A DNA stretch of 64,000 bases, taken from Mycolicibacterium madagascariense. Its GTDB lineage: Bacteria; Actinomycetota; Actinomycetes; Mycobacteriales; Mycobacteriaceae. How positions within the stretch are numbered: position 1 is the first letter of the stretch; the number at the start of each line of letters is the position of its first letter. A program made the position numbers and the translations under genes. Under the pieces are notes generated by a model. That model saw only the letters and a list, made by a program, of their open reading frames with translations, was not told the origin of the DNA and searched no databases. The DNA lies in assembly GCF_010729665.1 (NCBI RefSeq), contig NZ_AP022610.1, positions 868,001 to 932,000 on the forward strand, given 5' to 3'. This document shows, in pieces, positions 27,649 through 31,195 of the stretch.

Positions 27649-28384
27649 ACTTCCGCGTCGCGGTGGCCTGATCGCGCGGGCGGATGACGATCTGGTCCAG
27701 GTTGACGTGCGGGGGCCGGGAGGCCACGAAGCCGATCACCTCGGCGACGTCGGCGGCCACCAGCGGCGTCATGCCGCGGTACAGCGCGTCGGCGCGGTCC
27801 TGGTCGCCGCCGAACCGGACGACGGAGAACTCGGTCTCGACCATGCCCGGCGCAATCTCGGTGAGCCGCACGGGAAGACCCAGCAGCTCGCCGCGCAGGG
27901 TCTGGTGCAGCGCGGCCTGCGCGTGCTTGGCGGAGGTGTAGCCGGCGCCGCCGTCGTACACCTCGAAGGCCGCGATCGAGGTCACCGTGACGATGAGCCC
28001 GTTGCCGGAGGCGATCAGCTTCGGCAGCAGCGCCCTGGTCACGCGCAGGGTGCCCAGGACGTTGGTCTCCCACATCCAGCGCCAGTCGTCGAGGTCGGCG
28101 TCGGCGACCGTCTGGGTGCCCTTGGCGCCGCCGGCGTTGTTGACGAGGACGTCGACGCGCGTCAGGCCGTCGGCGAGCGCCTCGACCGCCGCGCCGTCAG
28201 TGACGTCCGCCACAATCGCGGTGCCACCGATCTCGGCGGCCAGCGCCGCGATGCGGTCCTGGCGACGGGCCACGCAGACCACGTGAAAGCCAAGTGCGGC
28301 AAGGGTTTTCGCTGTCGCCTCGCCGATGCCCGAGCTGGCGCCGGTGACCACGGCGACGGGCTGGGAGTTTCCGGATGCCGTCAT
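27626..28384 (-). CDS. short-chain dehydrogenase/reductase (Rv0484c-like)
   Basis: 252 residues. The classical SDR pattern is complete: cofactor loop [17 protein letters not shown] after the fourth strand, catalytic Ser in TSIAAFEVY, and Tyr/Lys in YTSAKHA. It is an NAD(P)-dependent oxidoreductase of unknown substrate. Its final codons overlap the transpeptidase gene on the other strand. The -10 TAGAGT (28397-28392) lies 7 nt before the ATG, so the mRNA is probably leaderless. It is divergent, by 35 bases, from the poly-cysteine ORF. Confidence 0.93.
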
Positions 28385-28391
28385 TCCGCCA

Positions 28392-28412
28392 ACTCTAGTG
28401 GCGTGCTAGGTT
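28392..28412. promoter_or_regulatory. divergent -10 elements for the SDR gene and the poly-cysteine ORF
   Basis: TAGAGT on the minus strand (28397-28392) and TAGGTT on the plus strand (28407-28412) are each 7 nt from their start codons. The whole gap between the two starts is 35 bases. Confidence 0.55.
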
Positions 28413-28419
28413 TCTCATC

Positions 28420-28494
28420 GTGTCCGCTGGTCTGACCTCCCGCATCGCCGTTCGGCGTGCGTGTTGTTGTCGTTGCCGCTGCAGCCGCGCCTGA
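28420..28494 (+). CDS. leaderless poly-cysteine short ORF upstream of the ROK regulator and mshA
   Basis: A 24-codon ORF from GTG 28420 to TGA 28494. Codons 15-21 read Cys-Cys-Cys-Arg-Cys-Arg-Cys (TGT TGT TGT CGT TGC CGC TGC). TAGGTT (28407-28412) is 7 nt upstream, which predicts a leaderless mRNA that starts on this codon. Leaderless poly-cysteine ORFs are known in mycobacteria as cysteine-responsive attenuators of sulfur-metabolism operons. By analogy, ribosome stalling on scarce Cys-tRNA would change expression of the downstream ROK regulator (GTG 28575, 80 bases later) and perhaps mshA. The coding pattern and promoter are seen; the attenuation role is inferred. Confidence 0.6.
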   Translation: MSAGLTSRIAVRRACCCRCRCSRA

Positions 28495-28574
28495 CCGAAT
28501 CACGGACGTCGTCCCCTCGAGTCGCCAGGTGAGGCCAAGAACCCACCAGCCGATATCGACGAAGGACACCTCCC

Positions 28575-29858
28575 GTGAGCACCACCGCCATTCGCGAGAC
28601 CCCCACCACCCCCACCGCCCTCTCGGCCGCCCACGCCAAGCGCGCGCTGATGGCCCGCCAGCACATCGTGGCGCCCTCGCTGCGGGTCGCCGAGGCGGCC
28701 GCCGCGTCGGTGTTCGGCGCCGCCCGGCTGCGCGGACCGATCGCCCGCGACGTCATCGCCCAGGCGACCGGGCTGAGCATCGCCACCGTGAACCGCCAGG
28801 TCACCGCCCTGCTCGACGCCGGTGTGCTGCGTGAGCGGGCCGACCTGGCCGTCTCCGGCGCCATCGGCCGCCCACGCGTTCCGGTCGAGGTCAACCACGA
28901 GCCGTTCCTCACCCTGGGCATCCACATCGGCGCCCGCACCACCAGCATCGTGGCGACCGACCTGTTCGGCCGGACCCTCGACGTGGTCGAGACCCCCACG
29001 CCACGCGGATCGCAGGGCACGGCGCTGGCCGCCCTCGCCGGCAGCGCCAGCCGCTACCTGAGCCGGTGGCACCGCCGCAGGCCGCTGTGGGTGGGGATCG
29101 CGTCGGGCGGCGTCGTCGACAGCGCCACCGGCCACCTCGACCATGCCCGGCTGGGCTGGACCGACGCGCCCGTCGGACCCGTGCTCGCCGAGGCCCTCGG
29201 GCTGCCGGTGTCGCTGGCGTCGCACGTCGACGCGATGGCCGGAGCGGAACTGCTGCTCGGCGCCCGCCGGATGAGTGCGACCTCGGCGCCGCTGACGAGC
29301 CTGTACGTCTACGCCCGCGAGACGGTCGGCTACGCGCTGTCCATCGGCGGCCGGGTGCACTCGCCCACCAGCGGTCCCGGCACCATCGCGGCGCTGCCCG
29401 TGCAGTCCGAGATCCTCGGCGGCACAGGGCAATTGGAGTCCACCGTGAGCGATGAGGCGGTGCTGACGGCGGCCCGCAGGCTGCGCATCGTGCCCGCCGA
29501 CGGACCATCGTCGACCGTGACCGCCGTACTGCGCTCGGCGCGCCAGGGCAACCGGGACGCCATCGACCTGCTCGACGAACGAGCCCGCGTGCTCGGGGAG
29601 GCCGTTGCGTTGCTGCGCGACATGCTCAACCCCGACGACCTCGTGGTGGGCGGGCAGGCCTTCACCGAGTACCCGCAAGCGATGGCCCGGGTCGAGGCGG
29701 CCTACCGCAGCCGCTCGGTGCTCGCCCCGCGCGACCTCCGGCTGACGTCGTTCGGGAACCGCGTGCAGGAGGCGGGCGCCGGCGTCGTGTCCCTGGGCGG
29801 GCTGTACGCCGACCCCATTGCTGCCATGCGGCGCGCCGTGCGCGACAAGACCGCCTGA
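28575..29858 (+). CDS. ROK-family transcriptional regulator (Rv0485-like)
   Basis: 427 residues. The N-terminal winged helix-turn-helix is GPIARDVIAQATGLSIATVNRQVTALLDAGVL. A ROK/NagC-type domain follows, with LTLGIHIGARTTSIVATDLFGR and LGWTDAPVGPVLAEALGLPV. The kinase-type ATP motifs are degraded, so it is a sugar-responsive regulator rather than a kinase. Its M. tuberculosis homologue affects PE/PPE gene expression. GTG 28575 is preceded by GAAGGA (28561-28566). The 190-bp upstream region contains the poly-cysteine ORF. mshA starts 56 bases after its stop. Confidence 0.88.
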   Translation: MSTTAIRETPTTPTALSAAHAKRALMARQHIVAPSLRVAEAAAASVFGAARLRGPIARDVIAQATGLSIATVNRQVTALLDAGVLRERADLAVSGAIGRPRVPVEVNHEPFLTLGIHIGARTTSIVATDLFGRTLDVVETPTPRGSQGTALAALAGSASRYLSRWHRRRPLWVGIASGGVVDSATGHLDHARLGWTDAPVGPVLAEALGLPVSLASHVDAMAGAELLLGARRMSATSAPLTSLYVYARETVGYALSIGGRVHSPTSGPGTIAALPVQSEILGGTGQLESTVSDEAVLTAARRLRIVPADGPSSTVTAVLRSARQGNRDAIDLLDERARVLGEAVALLRDMLNPDDLVVGGQAFTEYPQAMARVEAAYRSRSVLAPRDLRLTSFGNRVQEAGAGVVSLGGLYADPIAAMRRAVRDKTA

Positions 29859-29914
29859 CCCACCTCCGAGCAGGGCACGGGCAACTCCCGCGGGACCCGG
29901 TGTAAGTATTGGGT

Positions 29915-31195
29915 GTGCGCGTAGCCGTCCTGTCGGTCCATACCTCCCCCCTGGCCCAACCGGGGACCGGCGATGCGGGCGGGATGAACGTCTACGTCCT
30001 GCAGACCGCGCTCGAGCTGGCCCGCCGCGGCGTCGAGGTGGAGATCTTCACCAGGGCGACGACGTCGGCGGACGCCCCCGTCGTGCGGGTGGCCCCCGGC
30101 GTGCTGGTGCGCAACGTGGTGGCCGGACCGTTCGAGGGGCTCGACAAACACGACCTGCCCACACAGCTGTGTGCCTTCACCGCGGGCGTCCTGCGGGCCG
30201 AGGCCACCCACGAGCCGGGCTACTACGACGTCGTCCACTCCCACTACTGGCTCTCGGGCCAGGTCGGCTGGCTGGCGCGGGACCGGTGGGCCGTGCCGCT
30301 GGTGCACACCGCCCACACCCTCGCGGCGGTGAAGAACGCCTCGCTCGCGGTCGGCGACCAGCCGGAGCCGCCGCTGCGCGCGGTCGGCGAGCAGCAGGTG
30401 GTCGACGAGGCCGACCGGTTGATCGTCAACACCGAATACGAAGCGCAGCAACTGGTTTCGCTGCACCACGCCGATCCGCAGCGCATCGACGTCGCTCATC
30501 CCGGCGTCGATCTGGAGGTGTTCACCCCCGGTGACCGCGCGCAGTCGCGGCGGGCGCTCGGACTGCGCGCCGACGAGCGGGTCGTCGCGTTCGTCGGCCG
30601 CATTCAGCCGCTGAAGGCGCCCGACGTGCTGCTGCGGGCGGTCGCCAAGCTGCCCGACGTGCGCGTCGTCATCGCCGGCGGGCCGTCGGGGTCGGGGCTG
30701 GCGAATCCGGACGGGTTGGTTCGGCTGGCCGACGAGCTGGGTATGTCAGACCGCGTGACGTTCCTGCCGCCCCAGACCAGAGACCAGCTCGTCGACGTCT
30801 ATCGCGCCGCCGACGTCGTGGCGGTACCGAGTTACGCCGAGTCGTTCGGGCTGGTCGCGGTGGAGGCCCAGGCCTGCGGAACGCCGGTCGTGGCGGCCGC
30901 GGTGGGTGGTCTCCCGGTGGCCGTCCGCGACGGCGTCAGTGGCGTCCTGGTCGACGGTCACGACCCCGGCGACTGGGCCGCGGCCATCGATGGGCTCTTC
31001 GAGCGCGGACCCGACACCCTGCGGACCGCCGCGATGGCGCACGCCGCGAGCTTCTCCTGGGCGCACACCGTCGACGCGCTGCAGGCCAGCTACGGCCGTG
31101 CGATCAGCGACTACCGGTCCCGGCACCAGCGGGCCGAGCTACCGGTCCGGCGCAACGCCCGCCGGTTCTCGATTCGACGGGGCATCCGGGCATGA
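29915..31195 (+). CDS. mshA: D-inositol-3-phosphate glycosyltransferase
   Basis: 426 residues. MshA joins UDP-GlcNAc to inositol-3-phosphate in the first committed step of mycothiol synthesis. The GT4 family features are all visible: [21 protein letters not shown] at the N-terminus, [18 protein letters not shown] in the linker, and the EX7E element in [26 protein letters not shown] 29915 has TAAGTA (29903-29908) 6 nt upstream and may be leaderless; TTG 29909 is an alternative. The stop overlaps the YbjN gene start (ATGA). Confidence 0.97.

Follow-up and report, generated by a model that had tools for sequence, protein, structure and literature searches.

A conserved leaderless cysteine-rich ORF ahead of a ROK regulator gene in mycobacteria and its probable role as an attenuation leader

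What does a short cysteine-rich ORF do in front of a ROK-family regulator gene and the mycothiol gene mshA, and which of the two genes does it serve? We addressed this question in a 64,000-nucleotide stretch of the Mycolicibacterium madagascariense genome (contig NZ_AP022610.1, positions 868,001–932,000, forward strand; hereafter the window), comparing the locus with those of other genomes in the genus, the family and the order.

The ORF and its conservation in the genus

The ORF lies on the plus strand at 28420–28494 and consists of 24 sense codons, starting with GTG (28420–28422), followed by TGA; it encodes MSAGLTSRIAVRRACCCRCRCSRA. Codons 15–21 (TGT TGT TGT CGT TGC CGC TGC; 28462–28482) specify the stretch CCCRCRC, the proposed stall site, near the end of the ORF, as is usual for leaders of this kind. 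TAGGTT (28407–28412) has the TANNNT form of a −10 box and stands 7 nt (28413–28419) before the GTG, a leaderless spacing, and transcription probably starts at the GTG itself. The first-pass annotation had described this ORF, its Cys codons and the box, and the sequence bears all of them out. The next gene encodes a ROK-family regulator (28575–29858; Pfam PF00480, 56.5 bits, cut-off 22.9), by its locus the likely ortholog of Rv0485/Msmeg_0932 and the presumed target; its start, an automated choice, is preceded by the Shine-Dalgarno sequence AAGGAC (28562–28567; AAGGA at 28562–28566). mshA follows (29915–31195; TIGR03449, 660 bits, cut-off 462.5). The minus strand holds the start of an SDR gene at 28384 and a mechanically called 62-residue ORF (28381–28569) that overlaps the leader; such ORFs are annotated without transcript support, according to the available passages of Shell et al. 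2015 (PMC4633059). The Rfam 15 covariance models gave no match over 28000–30200 at E values up to 1.

We searched 118 genomes of the genus for the ROK gene and found a match at E ≤ 0.001 in 113, including one distant (G018) and two decayed (G074 and G114) copies. The remaining 110 loci (L009–L118) were taken, one per genome, leaving out a second copy in G106; one of them (L115) was excluded at a contig end, leaving 109 loci. A strict rule (TANNNT, a gap of 6–8 nt, ATG or GTG, an ORF of at most 45 codons and at least three Cys within eight codons) was satisfied upstream of ROK at 107/109 loci, compared with 0/109 on the reverse strand, 0/109 on each strand inside ROK and 0/2,180 dinucleotide shuffles. 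One locus missed by the strict search (L118) also carries a boxed ORF, giving 108/109; the upstream region of the other (L112) holds no boxed leaderless Cys-rich ORF. When the rule was relaxed to two Cys, the leader ORF was the sole match on either strand of the window. The leaderless Cys-rich ORF before ROK is not a chance occurrence, and position and Cys run are kept before one and the same downstream gene, in answer to the comparison across related genomes that the first-pass annotation had proposed.

Loss of the ROK gene was also seen in the genus. Six of the 118 genomes have no ROK ortholog (five without a match, and G018 with a match of only 29%), the gene is decayed in two 3.3-Mb genomes (L191 and L192), and at L118 it has an internal deletion beside an intact leader.

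Polycysteine leaderless short ORFs, the topic of Canestrari et al. 2020, are reportedly cysteine-responsive attenuators in which stalled ribosomes uncover a ribosome-binding site. The present ORF resembles that class in its Cys tract, in its presumed leaderless start (a −10 box at leaderless distance in 107/109 loci, with the transcript start itself deduced from it) and, in the proposed mechanism, in attenuation by stalled ribosomes; it differs in having a regulator gene as the target and, in other genera, a long form marked by a core that is not made of Cys. Members of the class usually, though not by strict definition, precede a gene for cysteine or sulfur metabolism; here the next gene is the ROK regulator. 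With a conserved leaderless poly-Cys ORF, of a kind shown or proposed to act in cysteine-responsive attenuation, standing before ROK, the class assigned in the first-pass annotation is probably right.

The same genome contains a second boxed leaderless poly-Cys ORF, VFTRHELQLTKRRAVDLCRVAGCRCCCCSC (L249:372–464 and L252:792–884, the same place), ahead of a two-rhodanese gene called cysA2-like. It resembles the ROK leader in its box (TACGAT), leaderless start, CRCCCCSC stretch and TGT run (TGT TGT TGT TGT), and differs in the rest of its peptide and in its sulfur-enzyme target. The fetched flanks of the sulfite/nitrite reductase loci of this genome held no boxed Cys ORF, so that these flanks did not reproduce the nirA case known from print.

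The mycobacterial form of the ROK leader is already in print, as far as the available passages of PMC4633059 go: a small ORF before Rv0485/Msmeg_0932 is one of three examples (Fig. 7B), cysteine-directed attenuation is suggested, and tracks of RNA-seq and ribosome profiling for the ortholog are listed in the legend of Fig. 7. That ORF matches ours in locus (by gene names), leaderless start, Cys enrichment and conservation in two mycobacteria; the genus-wide count, the ROK target, the core leader of other genera, the codon bias and the clade-specific pairings are found here. The downstream genes are termed ‘putative hypothetical or cysteine-metabolic’ in that paper, and the word ‘mycothiol’ is absent from its available text. 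The earlier statement that the link had not been described stands, within the literature searched, only for mshA itself. A published passage on Rv0485 orthologs, in M. marinum and a second species, was counted in favour of the leader reading, and six M. tuberculosis ORFs are predicted to be of the polycysteine leaderless kind (PMC9094748), their names not being given in the passages available. Among open-licence papers we found none on Rv0485 together with mshA (an absence that is weak evidence), and four peptide strings gave only two unrelated papers there.

A small Cys-rich protein acting in trans, for example in metal binding, would also account for a Cys cluster and would fit the ribosome-profiling tracks that the published legend (PMC4633059) announces for the M. 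smegmatis ortholog. However, the peptides differ greatly in length (14 to 37 residues among boxed genus peptides) and in the number and spacing of their Cys, yet the location ahead of ROK is constant, and eight of the peptides had no NCBIfam match at E values up to 1 (nor did two have a Pfam match); we consider such a protein very improbable.

The gene that the leader accompanies

The first-pass annotation had linked the ORF to mycothiol, proposing that cysteine may set the expression of the ROK regulator and possibly of mshA through it. Within the genus, the arrangement would permit this: ROK and mshA are adjacent on the same strand (median of 87 nt from the ROK stop to the start of mshA homology, 96 loci), and read-through is possible. 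Outside the genus, among 56 ROK loci from 24 other genera (ROK proteins 45–59% identical), mshA was inside the fetched stretch at only 7 and absent from it at 49. It lies a few kilobases downstream of ROK in some of these genomes and far away on the same contig in others (ROK near 2.27 and mshA near 3.13 Mb in G178; 3.97 and 0.66 Mb, respectively, in G164).

The reverse comparison used 30 mshA upstream regions, nearly all without an adjacent intact ROK: those of five ROK-less genus genomes, one with only a 37%-identical mshA paralog (the other 29 genes being clear mshA), two with a decayed ROK and 22 from other genera. No boxed Cys-rich ORF was found within 1.4 kb upstream of mshA in any of the 30; a leader in G151 would fall outside the 1.4 kb searched because ROK and mshA are approximately 0.7 kb apart there. 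The five ROK-less genus genomes, which retain mshA at 80–85% identity, lack such an ORF within this distance, consistent with co-loss. A relaxed search of these five and the two decayed loci returned scattered Cys-containing frames, none with a TANNNT box.

In the genus, mshA has a candidate start of its own. TGTARNNAT, followed after 5–7 nt by an in-frame RTG, precedes mshA at 82/96 genus loci, the window included (TGTAAGTAT, 29901–29909, 5 nt before GTG 29915), against one match in 86,400 bases of a control inside ROK. The strict TANNNT rule found nothing before mshA (0/96 genus loci), so that the site is promoter-like in a different form and has a putative promoter function. It characterizes the genus rather than every mshA gene, since only 2 of the 30 comparison loci carry it, and it is missing from four of the five ROK-less genus genomes. 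The site directly ahead of the mshA start (29901–29917 in the window) suggests a separate leaderless mshA transcript in the genus.

The ORF thus appears from these comparisons to go with ROK rather than with mshA, an association that is new relative to the published record, and its chief target is probably the ROK regulator. We rejected mshA as the main target: the ORF follows ROK to loci without an adjacent mshA, is found within 1.4 kb before none of the 30 mshA genes, and mshA in the genus mostly has its own promoter-like site. The possible read-through, together with the 14/96 genus loci and 28/30 comparison loci at which that site was not seen, leaves control of mshA, and hence of mycothiol, through the leader as an improbable reading.

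Codon choice and RNA pairing

The leader is probably a ribosome-stalling device that controls ROK by attenuation and senses cysteine. Our preferred form of this reading, to which we assign a probability of roughly 60%, is a cis-acting leader peptide for ROK whose stalled ribosome would expose the ROK Shine-Dalgarno sequence. RNA polymerase would initiate at GTG 28420 and a ribosome would load immediately on the 5′ end; with charged tRNA-Cys plentiful it would reach the stop codon at 28492, and with charged tRNA-Cys scarce it would stall in the Cys codons, its position selecting the downstream pairing. In the set of leaders that includes the window's, a ribosome at the stop would cover a GGAC arm (arm 1, a candidate anti-sequestrator typically starting 8–9 nt beyond), leaving GTCC (arm 2) to pair with the ROK Shine-Dalgarno sequence (off), whereas a ribosome stalled upstream would let GGAC pair with GTCC and leave the Shine-Dalgarno sequence open (on). 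In another clade, the leader's first codons could pair directly with the ROK ribosome-binding site. Low cysteine would thereby give more ROK protein, and mshA would be read mainly from its own start.

Codon choice in the leaders is strongly biased. At the first Cys-Cys pair, TGT occupies the first position in 105/107 and the second in 107/107 genus leaders (44/51 and 40/51 in other genera), against a TGT background in ROK, and in mshA where fetched, of 41/254 Cys codons in the genus and 6/140 in other genera. Replacing TGT by TGC raised the predicted stability of the ORF fold in 84/107 genus leaders and 27/53 others; the preference may stem from slower decoding through wobble pairing or from avoiding structure. 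A hairpin inside the reading frame whose loop would hold the Cys codons was striking by eye and was rejected, as folding energies equalled those of synonymous versions (mean z −0.06, P = 0.32, n = 107 in the genus; −0.29, P = 0.06, n = 53 in other genera). The window ORF is less folded than its synonymous versions (z = +2.2).

For pairing, the genus leaders were sorted by how they look into 38 leaders with the window's among them (the window's set), 37 leaders (the second set) and 32 others, and all statistics were computed across related leaders, with kinship not removed. In the window, arm 1 (GGAC, 28504–28507) begins 9 nt past the leader stop; arm 2 (GTCC, 28511–28514) could pair with either arm 1 or the ROK Shine-Dalgarno sequence, over only 4 bp here; and a conserved hairpin region (GAGTCG..GGTG...CACC..CGAT, 28519–28554; alignment A2, pair counts) stands between the two, after arm 2 and before the Shine-Dalgarno sequence. 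Across the window's set, the longest complement to the Shine-Dalgarno sequence averaged 5.08 nt versus 3.13 nt in shuffles (P = 2.3 × 10−8, 38 leaders) and the complement between the arms 3.16 versus 1.21 (P = 1.9 × 10−5); arm 1 was present in 26/38 leaders, 8 or 9 nt from the stop in 18 of these 26. Pairing between the binding site and the ORF exceeded that of synonymous versions in only 8/38 (P = 0.0016), in line with arm 2 being the partner. In the pair counts of this set, 86.3% of cells were paired, compared with 84.7% in column shuffles and 30–54% in slid versions, and nine cells with double changes exceeded the shuffle mean of 3.2 (0/500 reached it); sliding the columns by −2 and +1 gave 10 and 9. 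Pairing of arm 1 with arm 2 was not clearly better than in column shuffles (56/500 reached its double changes).

The second set behaves differently. Binding site–ORF pairing exceeded that of synonymous versions in 30/37 leaders (P = 1.2 × 10−6), the partner being the leader's first codons; 88.9% of cells were paired (36 leaders), and 0/500 shuffles reached the covariation score. Double changes numbered 7 in the named structure versus 13 in one slid version, a comparison in which the structure is favoured by derivation from the same sequences. This set showed no arm 1 (below the null, P = 0.001). A helix between the 3′ end of the ORF and a downstream GGTGTGG in this set, 95.4% paired and without covariation (451/500 shuffles reached it), was not used. 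The 32 other genus leaders gave no ORF–binding-site signal (16/32, P = 0.79) and a weak one for arm 2 (P = 0.021); in other genera, ORF–binding-site pairing was slightly raised (29/47, P = 0.016) and the arm test failed (P = 0.99). The covariation argument is weakened because slid controls match or exceed the double changes of the named structures.

Predicted access to the Shine-Dalgarno sequence was higher with a stalled ribosome than with one at the stop in 28/38 leaders of the window's set (P = 0.0087; a small effect, 0.30 versus 0.27), in only 16/37 of the second set and in 30/47 leaders of other genera (P = 0.03). In the window leader, predicted access hardly shifts (0.396 free, 0.401 stalled and 0.403 at the stop). 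An access model for the whole genus was rejected: stalled exceeded free in 72/107 leaders, yet native access equalled that of 5′-shuffled leaders (45/107 lower, P = 0.43), giving no signal beyond removal of sequence. For sequestration of the binding site unless the ribosome stalls, as in the polycysteine class, the results are mixed: pairing at the level of sets speaks for it, and the genus-wide access model, ORF folding, the arm 1–arm 2 shuffles, the slid controls and the window leader are neutral or contrary. These models give partial, clade-dependent support for attenuation, weak in the window leader, and favour attenuation in general over any single pairing.

Weak predictions of Shine-Dalgarno opening would also suit transcription attenuation, in which stalling in the ORF or finishing it decides whether RNA polymerase stops within the leader. 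Rv0485 orthologs of two species are described, in the published passage available, as having a high ratio of 5′-UTR to coding-sequence reads, although stability of the leader RNA could equally explain this ratio. The conserved hairpin region is followed by no U-run in the aligned leaders, so that termination would probably be Rho-dependent. The ilvB1 attenuator of M. tuberculosis, as far as it is described in the available passages of PMC13236596, is likewise built from regulatory codons in a leader ORF and mutually exclusive RNA pairings, and differs in its branched-chain codons and U-tract terminator, whereas the ROK leader has a leaderless start and no U-tract was seen. The complementarity of arm 2 to the Shine-Dalgarno sequence in the window's set, and the pairing of ORF with binding site in the other clade, argue against a polymerase stop as the point of control, and we regard it as a possible but rather unlikely alternative to stall-dependent Shine-Dalgarno exposure.

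A long leader with a conserved core in other genera

Outside the genus, 49/56 ROK loci (19/24 genera) are preceded by a longer leader with the core VTYVTxALGxRLPxxRxLCC, recognized by eye and then by a profile; 13 of the 49 seeded the profile, and the matches among non-seed loci numbered 36/43. Twenty further loci, chosen only from nine genera already positive, all had the core (20/20) and a TANNNT box, with 0/20 on the reverse strand; among the original loci, a leader with the box ahead of it is present at 53/56. Seven loci lack the core, of which five (g2, g20 and g24) have a different boxed Cys-rich ORF and two (g14 and g26) have neither. The boxed leaders before ROK in these five (L146, L147, L172, L177 and L178) look unrelated, with ends such as CCRMCCRPS and CRMCCMHCC. 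Three loci within the genus (L066–L068) retain the long form and bridge to the other genera. The core is missing from nearly all genus leaders, and the window peptide (L009) gave no significant match to its profile (E = 0.35), nor did a search of the window's own genome (best E = 0.46).

We rejected the core as a general cysteine leader, as strong matches are confined to other genera of the family. A scan of 249 genomes from the order gave 41 matches at E ≤ 0.1, of which 11 were strong (E < 1 × 10−12), one per genome, and the other 30 were weak (E = 0.004–0.1) and not accepted as real. Ten of the 11 strong matches lie directly upstream of ROK; the place of ROK in the eleventh genome (G145) was not among the matches listed. 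The present study contributes the core-bearing leader outside the genus and its association with ROK.

Codon positions 1, 2 and 3 of the core differ at 0.127, 0.111 and 0.451 (40 distinct sequences from 46 loci, three of them in the genus, taken by a gapless fit to a pattern that demands the residues), with 5,487 synonymous and 2,883 other codon differences. Where Gly, Arg or Pro is invariant, the third codon position is free, and from these alignments the core appears to be constrained at the protein level, that is, by selection on the peptide. The core begins 30 nt from the ORF start (nt 31) in 44/45 leaders. Within it, two fixed synonymous sites form the inverted repeat GTCAC-N4-GTGAC (for example, in L132 and L142; perfect in 33/46), which may be an operator, possibly for ROK, or a hairpin overlapping the core peptide; the palindrome occurs in 0/110 genus leaders. 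The Cys run is not a universal feature of the leader, since 17/47 core peptides of other genera have just one or two Cys after the RLP motif.

Such peptides raise the alternative that the nascent peptide itself arrests the ribosome, sensing cysteine or another thiol metabolite, and that most mycobacteria retained only the Cys run. A core common to 19 genera, with its freedom at third positions, would suit an arrest peptide, as would the members with few Cys. The near absence of the core from genus leaders, the window's included, stands against it, as do the residue-demanding pattern by which the 46 loci were selected and the partial overlap of the core with a DNA or RNA palindrome; we hold this reading to be doubtful, and retain the cis-acting leader with stall-dependent exposure as the preferred one.

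A wider scenario can be offered only tentatively. The mycobacterial poly-Cys ORF could be what erosion has left of an ancient leader peptide that served a single ROK regulator in the family. In other genera, the exit-tunnel part VTYVTxALGxRLPxxRxLC would sense a thiol or cysteine and arrest the ribosome, at a constant distance from the mRNA 5′ end; most mycobacteria would have switched to sensing starvation at Cys codons, with clade-specific pairings, and ROK would relay the cysteine signal to other genes.

The leader–ROK tie corrects a mycothiol account that was tempting and is unsupported. With the leader of other genera, a nascent-peptide leader could be set beside a codon-starvation leader at orthologous copies of one gene. 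According to citations in the passages available, virulence requires the orthologous regulator Rv0485, which also regulates the PE13/PPE18 pair. If the preferred reading is true, cysteine supply would reach a conserved transcription factor, beyond the operons of sulfur enzymes.
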